From Corallococcus sp. AS-1-6 (lineage in GTDB: Bacteria > Myxococcota > Myxococcia > Myxococcales > Myxococcaceae), in NCBI RefSeq assembly GCF_020037015.1, contig NZ_JAIQDE010000027.1:1-64000 (forward strand): a stretch of DNA of 64,000 bases. The letters run 5' to 3'. The position numbers and the translations under genes are program-made. Below the pieces are notes generated by a model that saw only the letters and a program-made list of their open reading frames with translations, was not told the DNA's origin and ran no database searches. Of this stretch, positions 50,925 to 60,349 are shown one piece after another; the stretch's first letter is position 1, and every line of letters starts with the position of its first letter.

Positions 50925-50953
50925 TTGACGCGCCTGGGGTGACCTCCTAGAAC
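50925..50953 (+). promoter_or_regulatory. Promoter of cobalamin unit 1
   Basis: TTGACG (50925-50930) and TAGAAC (50948-50953) are separated by exactly 17 nt, a sigma-70-like pair just ahead of the first cobalamin riboswitch. The same TTGAC-N17-TA layout precedes the other two riboswitches in this window. Confidence 0.6.
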
Positions 50954-50959
50954 GGCCGG

Positions 50960-51167
50960 GCCCTTGGGTGCCCATGCCGGGCCTTCAAGAGGGAAGCCGG
51001 TGCGAGTCCGGCGCGGTCCCGCCACTGTGAACGGGTTGCCCTGAGGTCCAGGGCCGGAAGCCTCGGCTGTCACCACTTTCGCTCCCGCGAAGGGAAGGTG
51101 GAGGGTTCCTTCCAGAAGGGCGCAGCGTGCGCCCAGGTCTGGAGCCTGTCAGCCAGGAGACCTGCCC
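50960..51167 (+). promoter_or_regulatory. Cobalamin riboswitch 1 (upstream of btuB-like gene)
   Basis: The RNA has the class-I cobalamin aptamer landmarks: GGGAAGCCGGTGCGAGTCC, the core CGCCACTGTGA, GGAAGCC near 51055, a long variable arm and the B12 box AGCCAGGAGACCTGCC at 51151-51166. It binds adenosyl- or methylcobalamin and normally shuts off the downstream gene when B12 is sufficient. The next coding start is 65 nt downstream, so translational control is possible. Confidence 0.93.
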
Positions 51168-51232
51168 AGGGGTGCGGCAGCGGTGCTGCCGTGAGGCCTT
51201 CTCTCTTCGACGGAGGGAGCGGAAGGCGGAGC

Positions 51233-53227
51233 ATGTGGCGCTCGCTTCTCGCCCGGACCGTCGTCGGTCTGGCGCTCGGCTTCCAGGCACAGGCCCTCGC
51301 CGGGCAGGAGACGCCTGCGCCCGAGGACGGCGAGCCCCCCCTCCCTGAGTTCGTCCTCCCCATCGTGGAGGTCATCGGCAGGGAGGTCCCCGAAGCCCCC
51401 GCCGACTCCGCCCGGCGCCGCGACCCCACCGGCGCCATCACCGTCATCGACGTCCGCGAGCGCGCAGGCGAAGCGCGCGACACCGCGGAGCTGCTCGGCG
51501 GATCCGCGAGCCTCGTCGTGCAGGACTCCGGCGGGTACGGACAGAGCAAGAGCCTGGTGGTTCGCGGCGCGTCGTCCAATGGCGTGCTCGTGTTCCTGGA
51601 CGGCATCCCGCTCAACGGCGCGGGCGGCGTCGCGGACCTGTCGCTCATCCCCGTCGCGCTGCTGGAGCGGATGGAGATCCTCCGCGGCGCGGCCGGTGCC
51701 CGCTACGGCGCGGGCGGCCTGGGCGGCGCGGTCAACCTCGTCACCCGCGCGCCCTCGTCACGGCTCCTCTCCAGCGGCGAGGTCACCTACGGCAGCTTCG
51801 ACACCGTGATGGCCCACGTCGCCGCGTCGGGCGCGCTGCTCGAAGGTCAGGCGCTGGTGCTGCTGCATGGCGGGCGCTCCCAGGGCGACTTCAGCTACCG
51901 CGTGGACGAGCTGCCCGCGCTGGACGACAACCCGCTCACGCAGGAGGTGCGCACGCGCAATGACGCGCGCGGTGGCGGCGCGCTCCTGAAGTACCGCCAG
52001 GGGCTGGACGGCGGCGGGCGCGTGGACGTGCTGGCGGAGCTGTCGCTGGAGGACCGCGCGCTCGCGGGCACCGTGCAGAACCCCGCCGAGTCCCGCCGCC
52101 AGGACCAGACGCGCCTGTCGCTGGGCGCTCGCTGGGCAAGGCCCTTCGGTGACACGGGTGAGGGCAGTGCTCGCGGCTTCTTCCGTCGCGACTGGCTGGA
52201 CGTCACCGGCGGCACCACCGGCGTGGACTCCGGCGCGCAGCACTACACCGTGGGCGGCGTGGAGGTGGAGGGGCGCGCGGTGCTGGGCCGCAACGCGCTC
52301 GCCGTCACGCTGGCCGGCTCATCGGAGTCCGTCACGCAGGCCGTGGGCGGCCAGGCCGCGTCGTGGTGGCGCGCGAGCGTCATGGCCATGGACTCGCTGT
52401 CCCTGTTCTCCGAGCGCCTGAAGCTGGTGCCTTCGGTGCGCGTGGAGCGCGTGGGGCACTACTCGCTGCTGTCGCCCAAGCTGGGCGCGAGCGTGGACCT
52501 GGGCCATGGCTTCGGCGTGCGCGCCAACGCGGGCCAGTCCCACCGCGCGCCGTCGTTCCTGGAGCTCTACATCCGGCAGGGCCTGCTGCTGCCCAACCCG
52601 GAGCTCAAGCCCGAGCGCGCCCTGTCCGTGGACGCCGCGGCCCTGTGGCACGACGCGCACTGGAGCGCCAGCGCGGGCGGCTTCGCGGCGGTCTACGAGA
52701 ACCTCATCGCCTACGAGCTGTACCCGCCGAATCTCGCGAAGCCCTACAACTTCGCCGCCGCGCGCGTGTGGGGCGCGGAGGTGGAGCTGGAGGCCCGGCC
52801 TCGCGCGTGGCTCACCGCGACCAGCAGCTACGCGTGGACCCGCACGCAGAACCGCTACGGTGACCCCCGCTACTTCGGCAAGGAGCTGCCGTACCGCCCT
52901 CGCCACAAGTGGGTGGGCCGGCTGCGCGTGGGGCCGGACTGGCTCAACGGCCGCACGGAGGTCCTCGTCCAGTCCTCGCAGTTGATCAACCGCGTGGGCG
53001 AGGCGCGCCTGTCCCTGCCTTCGCGCACCTGGGTGAGCGTGGGGGCCTCCAGCACCTTCCTGCGCCGCCCGGACCTCACCGTGTCGTTCGACGTGAAGAA
53101 CCTGCTCGATGCGCGGACCGCCGACTACACCGGCATGCCGCTGCCCGGCCGCGCCGCGTACGTGACGCTCTCCGTGGCGCTCGACCCTGCCCCCTCCGAG
53201 GACTCCCATGTCGCGTCCCCTCCTTGA
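51233..53227 (+). CDS. btuB: TonB-dependent outer-membrane receptor, BtuB-like
   Basis: This 664-residue protein has a Sec signal peptide (after QALAG), a TonB-box-like IVEVIG, and a plug domain with DTAELLGGSASLVVQDSGG, LVVRGASSNGVLVFLDGIPL and GAAGARYGAGGLGGAVNL. A 22-strand-type barrel follows with aromatic-ended strands. It directly follows a cobalamin riboswitch, so vitamin B12 or a related corrinoid is the expected cargo. The C-terminus runs about 15 residues past the usual terminal strand and overlaps the next gene by 20 nt, so the lipoprotein downstream is co-translated. Confidence 0.93.
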   Translation: MWRSLLARTVVGLALGFQAQALAGQETPAPEDGEPPLPEFVLPIVEVIGREVPEAPADSARRRDPTGAITVIDVRERAGEARDTAELLGGSASLVVQDSGGYGQSKSLVVRGASSNGVLVFLDGIPLNGAGGVADLSLIPVALLERMEILRGAAGARYGAGGLGGAVNLVTRAPSSRLLSSGEVTYGSFDTVMAHVAASGALLEGQALVLLHGGRSQGDFSYRVDELPALDDNPLTQEVRTRNDARGGGALLKYRQGLDGGGRVDVLAELSLEDRALAGTVQNPAESRRQDQTRLSLGARWARPFGDTGEGSARGFFRRDWLDVTGGTTGVDSGAQHYTVGGVEVEGRAVLGRNALAVTLAGSSESVTQAVGGQAASWWRASVMAMDSLSLFSERLKLVPSVRVERVGHYSLLSPKLGASVDLGHGFGVRANAGQSHRAPSFLELYIRQGLLLPNPELKPERALSVDAAALWHDAHWSASAGGFAAVYENLIAYELYPPNLAKPYNFAAARVWGAEVELEARPRAWLTATSSYAWTRTQNRYGDPRYFGKELPYRPRHKWVGRLRVGPDWLNGRTEVLVQSSQLINRVGEARLSLPSRTWVSVGASSTFLRRPDLTVSFDVKNLLDARTADYTGMPLPGRAAYVTLSVALDPAPSEDSHVASPP

Positions 53228-54815
53228 TGCGCGGCTCGCGCTGCTGCTGTCGGCCGTGGCGGCGGCGCTCCTCACCGGCTGCCCGGAGGAGAAGGTCCTG
53301 TGCACCTCCGGCCTGAGCGTCTGCGGCGCCGAGTGCGTGGACCTCCAGGGCGACCCGTCGAACTGCGGCGCGTGTGGCACCGCGTGCGGCGCGGGGGAGA
53401 CGTGTCAGGCGGGCGTGTGCGGATGCCAGCCGGGCACGCAGACGTGTGGTGAGGCGTGCGTCGCGCTCGCGAGCGACCCGCTGAACTGTGGCGCTTGCGG
53501 CGCCGCGTGTCCGTCCGGCCAGGTCTGCCAGGCCGGCACCTGCCGCGAGGGGTGCTCCGACGGCGCGGAGCGGTGCGGGGACAGTTGCGTGGTGCTCGCG
53601 AGCGACCCGCTGAACTGCGGCGCTTGCGGCGCGGTGTGCCCGGACGTGCAGTCGTGCCACTCGGGCCGGTGCATGTATGACGTGGTGGCGGCCTGCTTCA
53701 CCAACGGACAGCTCGTGGGCATCCAGGCGGCCACGGACCGGATGGGGCCCCGGCGGCAGTTCGGCTCCGGCGTGCAGGCGCTGGCGGCGTGGGATGGCGT
53801 GGTGCTGGCGGCGGACGCGGCGCGCTCGGTGCTGTCACAGGCTCCTGCGGGGGCGCTGGGGACGGTGGCGGAGGAGGACTCGCTGGGCGCGGTGGCGGCT
53901 TCGCCCAATGACATCCTCGTGGATCCTCCGTATGTGTATGTCCTCGACTCGGCGAACAACACGCTCCAGGTGCTCAAGCGGGAGGGGGCCGCGCAGGGCG
54001 GGGGGCTGGGACTGCGCACGGTGGGGCAGGTGAACCTGGGCGCGAACACCAGCCCGCAGGTCATCGCGAAGCGCGGCGACACGTTCTACATCCCGCTGTT
54101 CGGCACGGCCGGCTCCGACTTCAAGCAGGGCAACGCCGTGGCTCGCGTCAGCGTGAGGGACCCGGAGAAGCCCCGGCTCGTGGACACCGTTCCGCTCACC
54201 GGTCTGGACCTGAAGTCCTTCGACGGCGGGACGACGATGGCGCTTCCCTACGCGGCGGTGTCCGTGGACGCGGGCGTGTACGTGGCGCTCACCAACCTGA
54301 ACCCCGCGAATGACTACCTGCCCAACGGACCCGGGATGCTCGCGCGCATCGACCCGGCGGATGGTGGGGTGCACGCCATCGACCTGGGCGCGAAGGACTG
54401 CCTCAACGCGGGCGACGTGCAGGCGGTGGGTGACCAGTTGGTGGTGAGCTGCCTGGGCGAGGCGGTGTTCGACACCGCGGGCAGCTACCGCGCCAAGGCC
54501 GTGCGGGCCACGGGGCTGGTGCTGGTGAAGGATGACCGGCCCGTGGCGTCGTATGCGCTGTCGCCGGGCTGCACCGGAGGGCCGGAGAGCGGCTGCGACC
54601 TCGCGGTGGGAGGGCGGCTCGCGGTGGTGGGCAATGCCGTGTACGTCACGGACGTGAACGCGGGCCGCGTGTTCGTGGTGGAGGTGCGTGACGGCCAGTT
54701 CGTCGAGCGGCGCGGCAACTCCACGCCGCAGGCGGCGGGCCCGGCGCTGGATGCGTGTCCGGTGGATCCCCGGCGCGGCATCTCCAATGCCATCGACATC
54801 GTCGCGGTGCCGTGA
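53208..54815 (+). CDS. Cys-rich, propeller-like lipoprotein (BtuG-like candidate)
   Basis: This 535-residue protein has a signal peptide and lipobox LLTGC. Residues ~25-155 contain three or four Cys-rich modules of the form CVDL-DPSNCGACGTAC-CQAGVCG, common on myxobacterial surfaces. From ~160 to the end there are beta-propeller-like blades (PNDILVDPPYVYVLDSANN, GNAVYVTDVNAGRVFVVEV). It is co-translated with the BtuB-like receptor under a B12 riboswitch. In Bacteroides, BtuG propeller lipoproteins cap BtuB and capture B12, so I infer an analogous role; homology to BtuG itself is not shown. Confidence 0.82.
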   Translation: MSRPLLDARLALLLSAVAAALLTGCPEEKVLCTSGLSVCGAECVDLQGDPSNCGACGTACGAGETCQAGVCGCQPGTQTCGEACVALASDPLNCGACGAACPSGQVCQAGTCREGCSDGAERCGDSCVVLASDPLNCGACGAVCPDVQSCHSGRCMYDVVAACFTNGQLVGIQAATDRMGPRRQFGSGVQALAAWDGVVLAADAARSVLSQAPAGALGTVAEEDSLGAVAASPNDILVDPPYVYVLDSANNTLQVLKREGAAQGGGLGLRTVGQVNLGANTSPQVIAKRGDTFYIPLFGTAGSDFKQGNAVARVSVRDPEKPRLVDTVPLTGLDLKSFDGGTTMALPYAAVSVDAGVYVALTNLNPANDYLPNGPGMLARIDPADGGVHAIDLGAKDCLNAGDVQAVGDQLVVSCLGEAVFDTAGSYRAKAVRATGLVLVKDDRPVASYALSPGCTGGPESGCDLAVGGRLAVVGNAVYVTDVNAGRVFVVEVRDGQFVERRGNSTPQAAGPALDACPVDPRRGISNAIDIVAVP

Positions 54816-54834
54816 GGCATTGGCCCTGCTTGTA

Positions 54835-54863
54835 TTGACAAGCCCTGCTGTCCGCCATACTCC
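54835..54863 (+). promoter_or_regulatory. Promoter of cobalamin unit 2
   Basis: Perfect -35 TTGACA (54835-54840) and TACTCC (54858-54863) are separated by 17 nt, directly ahead of riboswitch 2. A CATACT at 54856-54861 is an alternative -10 with a 15-nt spacer. Spacing and sequence match the promoter of unit 3. Confidence 0.6.
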
Positions 54864-54875
54864 AGCGCCCGTCGT

Positions 54876-55064
54876 TGGTACGCCGCATCCGCAGGGTGCG
54901 GCGTTTAAAGGGAACCCGGTGTGAATCCGGGACTGCCCCGCAGCGGTGAGCAGGAACGAACGCCGTCCTCGCAAGCACTGGCCCGTGAGTGGGCTGGGAA
55001 GCGACGGCCAGTAGGTGGGTGACCCGATGAGGGCCTCCCGCGCCTGTGAGTCCGAAGACCTGCC
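54876..55064 (+). promoter_or_regulatory. Cobalamin riboswitch 2
   Basis: Landmarks are GGGAACCCGGTGTGAATCC, GGGACTGCCCCGCAGCGGTG with AGCAGGAAC, GGAAGCGACGGCC, and the B12 box GAGTCCGAAGACCTGCC ending at 55064. A long stem (GCCGCATCC pairing with GGGTGCGGC) forms the 5' side. This is a canonical cobalamin aptamer. The first start codon lies 173 nt further on, leaving room for the conserved leader hairpin described below. Confidence 0.95.
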
Positions 55065-55089
55065 ACGACCCATGCCTCCGGGCATGGCC

Positions 55090-55118
55090 AGACCGGAGCC
55101 TCCGAGGGGAGGTGACGG
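55090..55118 (+). promoter_or_regulatory. Conserved leader hairpin after riboswitch 2
   Basis: The segment begins AGACCGGAGCCTCCGAGG and ends GGGAGGTGACGG. CCTCC can pair with GGAGG over a GAGG loop. An almost identical segment occurs after riboswitch 3 (58090-58118). I infer an expression-platform or anti-Shine-Dalgarno element. Confidence 0.55.
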
Positions 55119-55237
55119 AGGTCTTCCGCTCGCGCGGCGTGTCGTGTCCTGACGTGTCCCCCGTGCGCGGTCCGCTCTCCGTCCACGCCCCTTGGATTCA
55201 CCTCGCCCGTGGGGGCGATGCAAGGGAGCAGTCGCGG

Positions 55238-56743
55238 ATGAAGACAGAGCGGATGTTGACGGGGCGGGGACTCCAGGGCTTCGCGTGGGCGCTGACGACC
55301 CTCGCGATGGCGCTGACCAGCGCGGGCTGCGGCGATGCGTGCGTCGATGATTTCGACTGCCGCGACCAAGGCGCCGCTCCCGCGGGACAGCGCTTCGCCT
55401 GCGTTGAGAGCAAGTGCGAGCTGACGTCCGTCACCGTGCCGGATGCCGGCACGGAGGCCGATGCCGGTGCGAGCACCGACGCGGGCACGGGCAGCGACGC
55501 CGGTACGACGACGGATGCTGGAACGACCGACGATGCCGGAACGGGCAGCGACGCCGGTACGACGGCGGATGCTGGAGCGACCGACGATGCTGGCACGAGC
55601 GCGGATGCGGGCACGGGCAGCGACGCAGGTACGAGCACCGATGCTGGCACAGGCGCCGACGCTGGTACGACGACGGATGCTGGAACGGACACCGACGCGG
55701 GCACGGGCACCGATGCAGGCTCGGATCCGTGCGCGGCCGCGACCTACGACCCGAAGCTGGGCACGCTCCAGCTCCAGGCGGGCTTCGTGGCCGGTGAGGC
55801 CGCGTCGCTTCCTTCCGCCGCGGGCCCGGTGGGCGTGACGCCCGGTCCCACGTACTCGCTCTACACGGTGGTGTCGGACGGCTCCTCCGGCCCTCATGCG
55901 CTGTACTCGCTGGGCACGTGGCCGCAGGTGTCGCTGGGCGCGGCGCCGCTGTTCGACGTGGCTGCTCCCTCCGACCGGAGCCCCTCCACCTCGCTCTTCC
56001 TCAGCCCCTTCGTGGAGACGGATGGCCAGCACGTCCTCACCGGCTACACGAAGTCCGGCGGAGGCTTCCCGGGCTCCGTGGGCGTGTATGACGTCGCCGC
56101 GCCCGCCAGCTCCACCTACGTCTCCGCGCCGAGCAACTTCTCCGCGGGCGTCGTGCCGGGCGCGTTCCTCATCAACGGCGGTGGGCTCGACACGGTGTCG
56201 GCCGGTCTGGGCGTCTACGCGTTGAAGACGGACAGCTCGCCGTTCACCGCGCTGAAGGTGGGCACGCTCCCGCCGGAGACGGGCGGCAGCGGCTTCACCG
56301 CCGTGTCCACCCACGGCGTCGCGATGATCGGCTACTTCTCCGACGACACCTTCCTCAACGAGGGCCGCGCGGTGGCCCCGGCGGCCATCACCGAGGCGCT
56401 CAGGTCCGGCACGCCGTTCGCCGTGGCGGATGCGCCCGCGCTCGACGTGGGCTCCAACTTCGTCGCCGCCTCGGGCCACGGCGAGGGCGTGTCCGTGCTC
56501 CGCGGCGACTACGTCCCGCCCGACTACAACTTCGCCGGCACGGACGTCTCGCGCTTCGCCTTCACCGTGACGGACGCCGGCGCGACCGTGACCGTCGGCG
56601 CCCGCCAGCCGGTGCTCGTCTACGCGGACCAGTGCACGCGCGTGACTGGCCTGACCGCCATCGGTGCGGACCTGCTCGTCGGCGTCGATGACAAGAACGG
56701 TGCGCGCCTGGTCCGCATCCAGCAGGCCCCTCAGCTCCGGTGA
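55238..56743 (+). CDS. Surface lipoprotein with DAGT repeats and propeller-like domain (B12 unit 2)
   Basis: This 501-residue protein has a signal peptide and lipobox TSAGC (Cys31), a small Cys-rich module CGDACVDDFDCRDQG, then 16 copies of a Asp-Ala-Gly hexapeptide (residues ~69-165). A domain of ~330 residues follows with repeated blade-like phrases such as VLTGYTKSGGGFPGSVGVYD, INGGGLDTVSAGLGVYAL and FTAVSTHGVAMIGYF. It is a close paralogue of the protein at 58240-59541. Placed directly behind a cobalamin riboswitch, it is most likely a surface corrinoid-binding protein, with the repeats acting as a flexible stalk. The ATG at 55238 follows GGGAG. Confidence 0.85.
   Translation: MKTERMLTGRGLQGFAWALTTLAMALTSAGCGDACVDDFDCRDQGAAPAGQRFACVESKCELTSVTVPDAGTEADAGASTDAGTGSDAGTTTDAGTTDDAGTGSDAGTTADAGATDDAGTSADAGTGSDAGTSTDAGTGADAGTTTDAGTDTDAGTGTDAGSDPCAAATYDPKLGTLQLQAGFVAGEAASLPSAAGPVGVTPGPTYSLYTVVSDGSSGPHALYSLGTWPQVSLGAAPLFDVAAPSDRSPSTSLFLSPFVETDGQHVLTGYTKSGGGFPGSVGVYDVAAPASSTYVSAPSNFSAGVVPGAFLINGGGLDTVSAGLGVYALKTDSSPFTALKVGTLPPETGGSGFTAVSTHGVAMIGYFSDDTFLNEGRAVAPAAITEALRSGTPFAVADAPALDVGSNFVAASGHGEGVSVLRGDYVPPDYNFAGTDVSRFAFTVTDAGATVTVGARQPVLVYADQCTRVTGLTAIGADLLVGVDDKNGARLVRIQQAPQLR
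55442..55729 (+). repeat. Coding hexapeptide repeats (Asp-Ala-Gly-Thr type)
   Basis: About sixteen 18-bp units encode variants of TDAGTG and SDAGTT, with the DNA phrase GACGCCGGTACGACG recurring. The stretch is acidic and Gly/Thr-rich, expected to be extended and mobile, and prone to copy-number change. Shorter versions occur in the proteins at 58240 and 59541. Confidence 0.85.
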
Positions 56744-57429
56744 GCGCGCCCATGAACAAGACCCTTCTTCCCAGGTCGTTCGCGCTGGGCTTCACCGCGC
56801 TCCTCTCCGTGGCGTGCGGCGGCGAGGACTTGCGGGACTCCCTCCAGGACCAGCCGCTGGTGGGTGCCCCGTTCGCGGACCGCGTCGTGTCCTTCGCTCC
56901 GGGCGCGGGCGCCGGGTTCGGTCAGGGCCTGCTGCCGGGCATCGTGCTGGGCGCGCCGAAAGGGGATGGCGCGTCGTCGGGCTCGCTGGACGTGCTGTCG
57001 CTCGGGAGCAACGGCGTCATCGTGCTGGAGTTCACGGACATCGCCGTCACGGACGGGCCGGGCGTGGACCTGCTCGTCTTCGAGAACGCGTTCATCAAGC
57101 CCTCCGGCAAGCCGTTCGCGGAGACGGGCGTGGTGGCCGTCAGCGACGACGGCGTCACCTGGCACGAGTTCCCGTGCGCGTCCTCCGACGTGGCGAACAA
57201 CTTCCCGGGCTGCGCGGGCGTCACGCCCGTGTACTCGCATCCCGACAATGGCATCCCGGCCACGGACCCGGCCGTGGCGGGAGGGGACGGCTTCGACCTG
57301 GCGGCCGTGGGCCTCACCCGCGCGCGCTTCGTGCGCATCCGCGACTCGGGCGCCAACGGCTACGCGGGCACCAGCGGCGGCTTCGACCTGGATGCCGTCG
57401 CCGTGGTGAACGGCGTGCAGCTTCCGTAG
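56740..57429 (+). CDS. Jelly-roll-like surface lipoprotein (B12 unit 2)
   Basis: This 229-residue protein starts at a GTG overlapping the preceding stop (an ATG at 56752 would start at the signal peptide proper), with lipobox LSVAC. The mature domain has GVDLLVFENAFIK, VAVSDDGVTWHEFPC and GTSGGFDLDAVAVVNG, a pattern shared almost residue for residue with the protein at 59541. The beta-rich, Cys-paired organisation suggests a jelly-roll or galactose-binding-like fold. Co-translation with a B12-controlled propeller protein suggests both form one surface complex. No enzymatic motif was seen. Confidence 0.82.
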   Translation: MSAPMNKTLLPRSFALGFTALLSVACGGEDLRDSLQDQPLVGAPFADRVVSFAPGAGAGFGQGLLPGIVLGAPKGDGASSGSLDVLSLGSNGVIVLEFTDIAVTDGPGVDLLVFENAFIKPSGKPFAETGVVAVSDDGVTWHEFPCASSDVANNFPGCAGVTPVYSHPDNGIPATDPAVAGGDGFDLAAVGLTRARFVRIRDSGANGYAGTSGGFDLDAVAVVNGVQLP

Positions 57430-57572
57430 TCGCGCGCGAGCACCGGGGCCGTTCTCCAGCGGACGGTCCCGGTGGCCTCGCGCGTCCATACGGCGAGTCC
57501 GGACGGCTGGAGGCTTCCGGGGTGGGGATGGCGGCATTAGATGCCCGCTGTCCCTCCCCCGGGTGCGCATCC

Positions 57573-57890
57573 ATGAACCGTCGTTCCGCCTCACTCCTCG
57601 TGCTGCTGGGCGTCCTGCTCGGCGCGGCCGCTCCGTTCCTTCTTCCCTCGGCGGTCTGGGCGCAGACGTCCCGCGCGGCGCCGCGGAAGGAAGTGCCGCC
57701 GCCCGCGCCTCCGCCGCCACCGGCGTACGAGTACACCTTCGTCAAGCGCGAGAGCCCGGACGAGGACCTCGTGGAGCTCCAGCGGCTGGGGGGCGAGGGC
57801 TGGCGCGTGGTGTCCACCGTCGTCGTGGACGGCAGCACGCGGCGCTACGTGTTGATGCGCGACCGACGCGCCGAACCCACGCCGCATTGA
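57573..57890 (+). CDS. Secreted DUF4177-like small protein
   Basis: This 105-residue protein has a long signal peptide (cleavage near VWAQ) and a Pro-rich linker. The domain YEYTFVKRESPDEDLVELQ with LGGEGWRVVSTVVVDGS is the DUF4177 fold (beta-alpha-beta, GW motif). It lies 143 nt after the previous gene and may be transcribed separately. Its 3' end overlaps the -35 box of the third cobalamin promoter. No link to B12 can be seen from the sequence. Confidence 0.72.
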   Translation: MNRRSASLLVLLGVLLGAAAPFLLPSAVWAQTSRAAPRKEVPPPAPPPPPAYEYTFVKRESPDEDLVELQRLGGEGWRVVSTVVVDGSTRRYVLMRDRRAEPTPH

Positions 57891-57915
57891 CTTTGCCCCG
57901 GGGTCGCCATAGTCC
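57887..57915 (+). promoter_or_regulatory. Promoter of cobalamin unit 3
   Basis: TTGACT (57887-57892) and TAGTCC (57910-57915) lie 17 nt apart, and the spacer shares the GTCGCCA/GTCCGCCA phrase with unit 2. The -35 box overlaps the last codon and stop of the preceding small gene. Confidence 0.6.
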
Positions 57916-57924
57916 CGCCCCGTC

Positions 57925-58055
57925 ATCGATGCCTTCACGCCATGGGGCGTGAGGGCTTCCAGGGAACCCGGTGTGAGTCCGGGACTGCCCCGCAGCGGTA
58001 AGCAGGAACAGCGTTCGCACGAACACCGTTTCAGCGAGTCCGAAGACCTGGCGAC
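57925..58055 (+). promoter_or_regulatory. Cobalamin riboswitch 3
   Basis: Landmarks are GGGAACCCGGTGTGAGTCC, GGGACTGCCCCGCAGCGGTA with AGCAGGAAC, a short variable arm, and the B12 box GAGTCCGAAGACCTGGC near 58034-58052. It is very close to riboswitch 2 in the aptamer core but shorter in the peripheral stem, consistent with duplication followed by divergence. The coding start is 185 nt downstream. Confidence 0.93.
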
Positions 58056-58089
58056 GACCCGGCGTCCTCCCCACGGAGGGCCCGGCGAC

Positions 58090-58118
58090 AGACCGGAACC
58101 TCCGCGGGGAGCTGACGG
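58090..58118 (+). promoter_or_regulatory. Conserved leader hairpin after riboswitch 3
   Basis: The segment begins AGACCGGAACCTCCGCGG and ends GGGAGCTGACGG, matching the leader element after riboswitch 2 at all but a few positions. The CTCC/GGAG pairing is kept. It is probably part of the shared expression platform. Confidence 0.55.
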
Positions 58119-58239
58119 CGAAGGCAGGCCTCCAGGGCGCGGCACGCGCCTGGCGGTCCGGTGCCTTGCGTCCGCGCAGCCTCCCGCCAGGGCAACGCCT
58201 TTTCCGCCTCCGGGCGGGAAGGCCAGGAGCGAGGACGCG

Positions 58240-59541
58240 ATGCGGACCGACATGAAGCGGATGGGCACGAAGGGCCAGCGCGCGGCGTGGATGGGCGCCC
58301 TGCTGGCGGTGGTGCTGGGCGGCACGGGCTGCGGCAGTGAGTGCGTGGACACCTTCGACTGCCGCGACAAGGGCACGCCCGCGGAGGGCAAGGCCTGGGC
58401 CTGTGTCGCGGAGACGTGCACCCAGGTCACCGTCGACATCGAAGAGGTCGACGCGGGCACCGACGCGGGGACGGGCTCCGACGCGGGCACGGAGCCCGAC
58501 GGTGGCACCGGCACGGACGCGGGCACGGATGGCGGGACGGTCGCTTGCGCCCCGCTGCCTCGCGAGCAGGTGCTGGGCACGCTCCAGCTCCAGTCGGGCT
58601 TCAGCGTCGCGGAGTCCGCGGAGCTGTCCCCGGAGGTGGTCGCGGTGGTGTCCACGCCCGGCCCCACGCACTCCCTCTTCGGCTTGCGCACGACGGCCAC
58701 GGGCCGCGACTTCTTCGCGCTGGGGACCTGGCCGGACGTGACGCTGGGCACCGCCGCGCTCGACACGGTGCTCGCGCCCGCGGACCGCGCCAGCGCGGCC
58801 GACACCTACCCGTCCTACTTCCTGGCCTATGACGGCACGCGCCTGCTCGCGGGCTACACGAAGTCCGGCGCGGGCTTCCCGGGCTCCGTCGCGGTGGTGG
58901 ATCCGTCCGGGCGCGACGCGGCGCTCTACCTCAACGCGCCGGGCAACTACACCGCCGCGGGAACGACGGACGCGTTCTTCGTCAATGGCGGCGGCCTGGA
59001 CACGGTGACGGACGGCCTGGGCGTCTACGCGCTGGTGACCTCCGCCAAGCCCTACGTCGCCGTGAAGGTGGCGGACTTCCCGGCGCAGGTGGGCGGCAGC
59101 GGCTTCACCGCCGTCGCGGACAACGGCATCGCGGTGTTCGGCTACTCGGAGCCGGACACGTACGTGAACGTGGCCTACGCCGTGTCCAGCACCAAGCTGG
59201 GCGAGGCGCTGGCGTCGCGCACGCCGGTGGTGCTCACGAACGAGCCGAAGGTGGACGTGGGCTCCGACTTCAACGCCGCCGCCAGCTTCGGCAACGGCGT
59301 GGCCCTGGCGCGCGGCGCCTACGGCGCCACGGGCTTCGGCGTCACCGACGTGTCGCGCTTCTCGCTCACGCCCGGCCTGGGCGGCGGTCAGCCCATCAGC
59401 GTGGGCACGCGCGTGGCGGTGCTCAACGCCGCGGACGCGTGCACGTCCGTGGACCTGCTGTCGTCGCTGGGCGCGGACCTGCTCGTGGGCGTGAAGGACG
59501 TCAACGGCCGCCGCCTCGTGCGCATCCGGCAGGGCCCGTGA
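58240..59541 (+). CDS. Surface lipoprotein, paralogue of the 55238 protein (B12 unit 3)
   Basis: This 433-residue protein has a basic n-region and lipobox GGTGC, the same small Cys module (CGSECVDTFDCRDKG) and only about five DAGT-type repeats. The propeller-like domain contains LLAGYTKSGAGFPGSVAVVD, VNGGGLDTVTDGLGVYAL and FTAVADNGIAVFGY. Its similarity to the unit 2 protein runs through the whole mature chain, so the units arose by duplication. It sits behind cobalamin riboswitch 3. Its stop overlaps the next start by one base (TGATG). Corrinoid binding is inferred from regulation. Confidence 0.85.
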   Translation: MRTDMKRMGTKGQRAAWMGALLAVVLGGTGCGSECVDTFDCRDKGTPAEGKAWACVAETCTQVTVDIEEVDAGTDAGTGSDAGTEPDGGTGTDAGTDGGTVACAPLPREQVLGTLQLQSGFSVAESAELSPEVVAVVSTPGPTHSLFGLRTTATGRDFFALGTWPDVTLGTAALDTVLAPADRASAADTYPSYFLAYDGTRLLAGYTKSGAGFPGSVAVVDPSGRDAALYLNAPGNYTAAGTTDAFFVNGGGLDTVTDGLGVYALVTSAKPYVAVKVADFPAQVGGSGFTAVADNGIAVFGYSEPDTYVNVAYAVSSTKLGEALASRTPVVLTNEPKVDVGSDFNAAASFGNGVALARGAYGATGFGVTDVSRFSLTPGLGGGQPISVGTRVAVLNAADACTSVDLLSSLGADLLVGVKDVNGRRLVRIRQGP

Positions 59542-60308
59542 TGAAGCGTCCCTTGCTCGCGCTCGGCGCGCTGCTGGCCCTGGGCGCGTGCTCGGGCGAC
59601 TCCGAGTACGCCCCGCCGCCTTCAGGCGAAGTCGTGGATGCCGGCACCCTCGCGGATGCCGGCGTCTCCGATGCCGGGACGGACTTCGACGCGGGGACGG
59701 ATGCCGGCGCCGACGCGGGCTCGCGGCCGGTGGATCCGTTCGCGGACCGGGTGACGGCGTACACGCTCGGCGACTCGGCGGGCTTCGGGCAGGACCGCCT
59801 CCCGGACGTCGTGCTCGGGCCTCCCGTGGGCGCGGGCCAGTACACCGGCTCGCTCGACGTGCTGTCGCTGGGGCGGGGCGGCTCCATCACCCTGGAGTTC
59901 ACCGACCTGTTCGCGGTGGATGGCCCCGGCGTGGACCTGCTCGTCTTCGAGAACGCCTTCCAGAAGGTGGGCGGCGACATCTTCGCGGAGCCGGCCCAGG
60001 TGTCCGTCAGCGACGACGGCGTCACCTGGTTCGACTTCCCGTGCGCCGCCACCGACAAGGACGGCGGCTTCCCGGGCTGCGCCGGCACGCACCCGGTGCA
60101 CTCGGCTCCGGACAACGGCGTGTCCGCCACCGACCCGGCCGTGGCGGGCGGAGACGGCTTCGACCTTGCGGACGTGGGACTCCACCGCGCGCGCTTCGTG
60201 CGGATCACCGACACGGGGCTCAACAGCTACGGCGGCACGTCCGGCGGCTTCGACCTGGACGCGCTGGCGGTGGTGAACGGCCAGCTCCCTGACGGCGGCG
60301 TGCCGTGA
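59541..60308 (+). CDS. Jelly-roll-like surface lipoprotein, paralogue of the 56740 protein (B12 unit 3)
   Basis: This 255-residue protein has a signal peptide and lipobox LGAC, a short acidic DAGT-repeat stalk (residues ~32-62), then a domain with GVDLLVFENAFQKVGGD, VSVSDDGVTWFDFPC, FPGCAGTHPVHSAPDNG and GGTSGGFDLDALAVVNG. The domain is nearly superimposable on that of the unit 2 partner, which lacks the stalk. Preservation of the same two-gene order in both units argues that the two lipoproteins act together. Beta-rich and Cys-paired; no catalytic residues seen. Confidence 0.83.
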   Translation: MKRPLLALGALLALGACSGDSEYAPPPSGEVVDAGTLADAGVSDAGTDFDAGTDAGADAGSRPVDPFADRVTAYTLGDSAGFGQDRLPDVVLGPPVGAGQYTGSLDVLSLGRGGSITLEFTDLFAVDGPGVDLLVFENAFQKVGGDIFAEPAQVSVSDDGVTWFDFPCAATDKDGGFPGCAGTHPVHSAPDNGVSATDPAVAGGDGFDLADVGLHRARFVRITDTGLNSYGGTSGGFDLDALAVVNGQLPDGGVP

Positions 60309-60322
60309 ACACGCGCGCCCCA

Positions 60323-60349
60323 CCTGCCTCCTGAAGCCGGGGAGGCGGG
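60323..60349 (+). terminator. Candidate terminator of cobalamin unit 3
   Basis: CCTGCCTCC (60323-60331) pairs with GGAGGCGGG (60341-60349), nine pairs with one G-U, 14 nt after the last stop of the cobalamin locus. No T-run follows. Confidence 0.5.

Follow-up and report, generated by a model that had tools for sequence, protein, structure and literature searches.

We analyzed a 64-kb window of the 9.5-Mb genome of Corallococcus sp. AS-1-6, that is a stretch of 64,000 nucleotides on contig C19 (closest relatives, L004-L007). Here, we found three consecutive gene units, each headed by a cobalamin riboswitch (Table 1). The window contains exactly three matches to the RF00174 model, all on the plus strand, full-length (model positions 1-189) and above the Rfam gathering score of 31.5 bits. 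The three B12 aptamers within about 7 kb that had been proposed in an initial annotation are thus recovered, between positions 50949 and 58069. A whole-genome RF00174 search returned the same three only (150 of 701 first-look candidates were scored). Myxococcota genomes mostly carry 1-5 cobalamin riboswitches per 2-14 Mb, and we estimate from these counts that a random 7.5-kb stretch would contain one by chance in about 0.2% of cases.

Unit 1 encodes a BtuB-like receptor and a propeller lipoprotein, termed P1. Units 2 and 3 each encode a stalked propeller lipoprotein (P2 and P3, respectively) and a jelly-roll lipoprotein (J2 and J3, representing a family that we term JR). Lipoboxes could be read by eye in all five lipoproteins (LTGC, SAGC, VAC, GTGC and GAC). 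The gene content is as initially annotated, with the exception of a small secreted DUF4177-like gene that had been left out. This gene, located between units 2 and 3, is conserved in Corallococcus loci and was undetected in the M. xanthus locus L008.

Table 1. Riboswitches, leader elements and genes of the three units
Feature	Position	Strand	Evidence
Promoter-like TTGACG-N17-TAGAAC, unit 1	50925..50953	+	Pattern scan
Cobalamin riboswitch aptamer 1	50949-51183	+	RF00174, 75.2 bits
BtuB-like TonB-dependent receptor	51233..53227	+	PF00593, E 2e-31; PF07715, E 8e-20
P1 lipoprotein, Cys-rich stalk and propeller	53208..54815	+	NF041328, 164 bits, above cut-off
Promoter-like TTGACA-N17-TACTCC, unit 2	54835..54863	+	Pattern scan
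Cobalamin riboswitch aptamer 2	54858-55081	+	RF00174, 95.8 bits
CCTCCGAGGGGAGG hairpin, directly 3' of aptamer 2	55090..55118	+	Near-invariant in 11 leaders
P2 lipoprotein, DAGT-repeat stalk and propeller	55238..56743	+	AlphaFold pLDDT 92.8; PDB propellers
J2 jelly-roll lipoprotein (JR family)	56752..57429	+	AlphaFold pLDDT 82.5
Small secreted DUF4177-like protein	57573-57890	+	PF13783, below cut-off
Promoter-like TTGACT-N17-TAGTCC, unit 3	57887..57915	+	Pattern scan
Cobalamin riboswitch aptamer 3	57910-58069	+	RF00174, 66.2 bits
P3 stalked propeller lipoprotein, P2 paralogue	58240..59541	+	42% identity
J3 jelly-roll lipoprotein, J2 paralogue	59541..60308	+	69% identity to J2

Leader elements and riboswitch output

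We scanned the 64-kb window for TTGAC-N16..18-TA motifs and located three on the plus strand and none on the minus strand, with an aptamer starting 23-24 nt downstream of each. The suggestion that every aptamer is preceded by a promoter therefore holds in that a TTGAC...TA motif is present at all three positions, but none of these plus-strand motifs reaches the full sigma-70 consensus. In 11 aligned unit 2 and unit 3 leaders from Corallococcus and Myxococcus, TTGAC and TA are invariant, and conservation extends from the promoter-like motif to the aptamer core, the B12 box (GAGTCCGAAGACCTG) and a hairpin located 3' of the aptamer. The CCTCCGAGGGGAGG hairpin of unit 2 may serve as a regulatory element. 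Folding the unit 2 leader as a single sequence (z -2.8) did not reveal a clear switch.

No intrinsic terminators were found on the plus strand, and we thus discarded intrinsic termination as the riboswitch output. Consequently, the output is probably either translational or Rho-dependent. A further cobalamin riboswitch in a genome of genus g19 (G136, L132:3362-6761) precedes genes for a class III aminotransferase and an aldehyde dehydrogenase, as judged by eye; a riboswitch of this kind was not found in the window's genome.

Receptor, propeller and jelly-roll proteins

The reading of unit 1 as a BtuB-like receptor with a propeller-like lipoprotein is supported by our analysis. Both the barrel and the plug domain of TonB receptors are matched (PF00593 and PF07715), and the best PDB matches of the receptor are to E. 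coli BtuB (E 3e-19). The protein scores below the cut-offs of the BtuB equivalog models (116 versus 599.7 bits for TIGR01779 and 81.6 versus 836 bits for NF007926), and we therefore refer to it as BtuB-like. The receptor and P1 genes overlap by 20 nt. P1 combines a Cys-rich stalk of the MXAN_6577 type with a BtuG/YncE-like propeller at its C-terminus, and its family is present in 110 of the 195 Myxococcota genomes searched. Among 20 diverse Myxococcota P1 loci, a B12 riboswitch is found in 18 and a BtuB-like receptor gene lies upstream of and adjoins P1 in all 20, with the receptors being 33-69% identical; for this and the following riboswitch-linked counts, loci were picked for diversity rather than randomly sampled. 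Two ORFs of about 1200 amino acids (in L063 and L076) had the appearance of BtuB-P1 fusions, and were rejected as such because the extra length is open frame without receptor sequence.

Units 2 and 3 contain paralogous propeller/jelly-roll pairs, as had been noted from the sequence. P2 and P3 share 42% identity over their full length. AlphaFold modeled P2 confidently as an all-beta protein (pLDDT 92.8). In agreement with the predicted propeller fold, this model is best matched in the PDB by propellers, including WD40 and kelch proteins, with modest TM values of 0.4-0.5. A sequence search of the PDB with P2/P3 returned no solved relative. Profile-profile comparison with hhalign provided no link between P2/P3 and BtuG-like propellers (0.3% and 0.7%), and we thus do not consider P2/P3 to be BtuG homologues. 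The family was found in 76 genomes and is rarely encountered outside the Myxococcus/Corallococcus family. At least 53 of the 76 genomes have a listed riboswitch in the same orientation, at a distance of 306-700 nt upstream, and a separate locus search identified a riboswitch in two more. In one genome (G182), the propeller alone sits behind a riboswitch, apart from JR. Some Corallococcus carry an additional P2 paralogue: in C. exercitus, an extra P2-type gene, for which no separate riboswitch was detected, lies between units 2 and 3 (L007:11301-12695), and J2 of the same locus appears frame-broken.

J2 shares 69% identity with J3 over 186 amino acids, and the J3 gene start overlaps the P3 stop. 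The AlphaFold model of J2 (pLDDT 82.5) is a jelly-roll with weak CBM32/discoidin-type matches, in line with the fold initially assigned; BtuJ is absent among the 50 structural matches listed. JR, modeled here from 12 sequences, occurs in 98 of 195 Myxococcota genomes. All seven first-found JR loci are linked to a riboswitch, as are 11 of 19 Myxococcota loci chosen for taxonomic spread. The other eight have no above-cut-off riboswitch nearby, one of them having a sub-cut-off match. At least two JR matches are present in all 16 Corallococcus genomes and mostly one in genus g19, taken as Myxococcus from L008-type matches, which fits a role of copy number in dose or specificity. The invariant positions of JR are rich in glycine and acidic residues, and almost every row of the alignment has Gly or Asp immediately before the FDLDAV motif.

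We compared JR to known jelly-roll families. J2 does not match PF14717 (DUF4465), for which we found no member in the window's genome, and hhalign gave no profile link between JR and DUF4465 (0.3%). The HI-loop tyrosine (GTPAYF motif), reported for 97% of DUF4465 proteins (PMC13398666), is absent from JR when the loops are matched by eye rather than by computed alignment. On the basis of Pfam, profile-profile comparison and the missing tyrosine, we rejected JR as a DUF4465 member. A sequence search of the PDB with JR gave no match to any B12 protein. NF033170, the LIC_13355 family of Leptospira, is matched over ~117 residues by J2 (E 7e-9) and J3 (E 3e-8), far below the family cut-off (35 versus 120 bits). 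Based on this weak sequence similarity, a B12 link might be worth considering for LIC_13355 family members.

JR is also present in a KSB1-type phylum, in 37 of 82 genomes. Here, it is mostly found in ORFs of ~640 amino acids that read as a propeller followed by JR and a sorting tail, directly downstream of BtuB. In one KSB1 MAG (L010), a riboswitch and a BtuB-like receptor accompany a single protein of this composition, in which the Por_Secre_tail match is weak. Of 20 KSB1-type JR loci, 18 contain a riboswitch, the remaining two ending at a contig edge, and 19 contain a BtuB-like receptor gene. The fused propellers match the solved structures of BtuG1 (8blw_B, E 6e-21), BtuG3 and BtuG2, with a generic YVTN surface-layer protein scoring higher than the BtuGs. 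P1, when compared directly to solved BtuG, yields an E of about 0.09 and leaves PF16819 unmatched. It is linked, however, to the KSB1 propellers by hhalign (97.2%, E 3.5e-11), where control propeller pairs reach 0.3-0.7%. As the KSB1 propellers in turn match solved BtuG, P1 may be regarded as BtuG-like, by an indirect sequence link through this intermediate family.

Proposed function of the locus

We assessed the B12 physiology of the host using single-family searches, on which the metabolic context rests. A search for CbiC, which marks corrin-ring synthesis, was positive in seven control genomes and negative in the window's genome. MetH is present, and the match to its activation domain (L124, G000:C16:72581-73234) contains one internal TGA, which could be due to sequencing error, to a terminal frameshift or to genuine truncation. 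The genome encodes two FecCD-type ABC permeases at other loci, where each is accompanied by genes for an ATPase and a BtuF-like binding protein. One of the two loci is close to a heme-type receptor, and both are tentative candidates for B12 transport. The L125 locus (G000:C32:32500-42000) encodes a TonB heme-type receptor, a BtuF-like binding protein, a FecCD permease and a heme-type ATPase, and probably functions in heme uptake. M. xanthus imports B12 and is unable to make it (PMC8156234). Among the papers searched, we found nothing relevant to an importer or riboswitch for B12 in myxobacteria. The genes described here are candidates for the known B12 import of M. xanthus, which supplies the B12-dependent light sensor CarH.

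We propose that the locus encodes a cobalamin-riboswitch-controlled system for corrinoid capture and uptake at the outer membrane, and assign to this reading a probability of roughly 0.8. It is based on the recurrent linkage of each of P1, P2/P3 and JR to cobalamin riboswitches within Myxococcota, and on the fusion of JR to a BtuG-like propeller beside BtuB in the KSB1-type phylum. Under B12 limitation, expression of the three units would be permitted by their riboswitches. The BtuB-type receptor would then move corrinoid across the outer membrane via TonB, with P1 acting as its surface partner or lid in a BtuBG-like importer. P2/J2 and P3/J3 may be surface lipoproteins that bind corrinoid and thereby add capture capacity, and they could pass their ligand to the receptor-P1 complex, as thought for BtuH/BtuJ in Bacteroides. 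From there, corrinoid would presumably be handed to one of the two unlinked FecCD-type ABC transporters with BtuF-like proteins. That these proteins are exposed on the surface, form complexes, bind corrinoid and pass it on is inferred. We slightly favor the notion that JR and P2/P3 represent two undescribed corrinoid-binding families, and that both were added to a BtuBG-type transporter separately from BtuH and DUF4465; JR is not named as a B12-binding family in any library searched.

B12 capture, as initially suggested, is thus backed by riboswitch and BtuB linkage across Myxococcota and the KSB1-type phylum, but comparisons of P2/P3 with BtuG and of JR with DUF4465 yielded no sequence link. 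The design had also been noted as not known from myxobacteria. The three-unit layout is a genus-level elaboration of a phylum-wide system rather than a stand-alone design. General scavenging fits equally well as the initially favored uptake of B12 from prey.

We considered other explanations for this arrangement. Unit 1 alone could take up B12, with P2/P3 and JR being lipoproteins made at low B12 that bind something else, such as the prey surface, cobalt or other cofactors freed by prey. P2/P3 and JR indeed match none of the B12-binding families tested (BtuG and DUF4465/BtuJ), and LIC_13355, the nearest named JR relative, has been studied for binding activities with B12 unmentioned. In addition, the acidic and glycine-rich residues of JR contrast with the aromatic pocket described for DUF4465. 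We nevertheless consider this scenario unlikely, given that JR is fused to a BtuG-like propeller encoded beside BtuB in the KSB1-type phylum and that the riboswitch linkage holds in two phyla, even where JR and the propeller are apart, as in G182. A shed or vesicle-borne location of P2/J2 and P3/J3, which would make them extracellular B12 scavengers that are returned to cells, appears quite improbable to us. It would be consistent with genes that lie apart from the receptor and have riboswitches of their own, with the long DAGT stalks of P2/P3, and with the behavior of BtuJ in B. thetaiotaomicron (PMC12751083), but lipoboxes alone are no predictor of vesicle sorting.

We find it hardly credible that the riboswitch matches and operons arose by chance or have decayed, and that B12 control is lacking. 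The plus strand provides neither a strict sigma-70 promoter nor an intrinsic terminator, yet the RF00174 scores of 66-96 bits, the aptamer core, promoter-like motif and 3' hairpin kept in 11 leaders, and the linkage conserved across two phyla all argue against such a scenario. Overall, riboswitch-controlled corrinoid capture and uptake is clearly the most plausible explanation.

Comparison with known B12 capture systems

BtuBG of Bacteroides similarly combines a riboswitch-controlled TonB receptor with an adjacent propeller lipoprotein (PMC6143338, PMC10404256). P1 differs in having a Cys-rich stalk, in its occurrence in Myxococcota and in having no significant direct match to solved BtuG. BtuG has been reported as Bacteroidetes-only (PMC6143338), and surface capture of this type, described as unique to that group, was explained by competition in the gut. 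A BtuG-like BtuB partner in Myxococcota and in the KSB1-type phylum thus widens the picture, as the same capture logic would operate in soil predators and in members of a second phylum.

Like JR, the BtuJ/DUF4465 proteins (IPR027828) are secreted jelly-roll lipoproteins encoded behind B12 riboswitches near BtuB, but JR lacks the PF14717 match, the profile link (0.3%) and the conserved HI-loop tyrosine. The sole DUF4465 gene that we found among 195 Myxococcota genomes (G006, L129:5514-5693) immediately follows a cobalamin riboswitch. A JR gene in this genome (L058) lies behind a separate B12 riboswitch, which suggests that both types of jelly-roll can occupy similar positions in the system. The LIC_13355 family (NF033170) of Leptospira shows partial similarity to J2/J3, which score far under its cut-off, and the study of LIC_13355 binding contains no B12 link.

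The KSB1 fusions are reminiscent of BtuG1 from B. thetaiotaomicron, in which a second B12-binding domain (BtuH) follows the propeller in the position taken by JR. For the BtuH B12-binding domain, no known structural homologue has been reported (PMC8941943), whereas JR is predicted to be a CBM32-like jelly-roll. Taken together, the locus probably resembles BtuBG-type capture outside Bacteroidota, built in part from different protein families.
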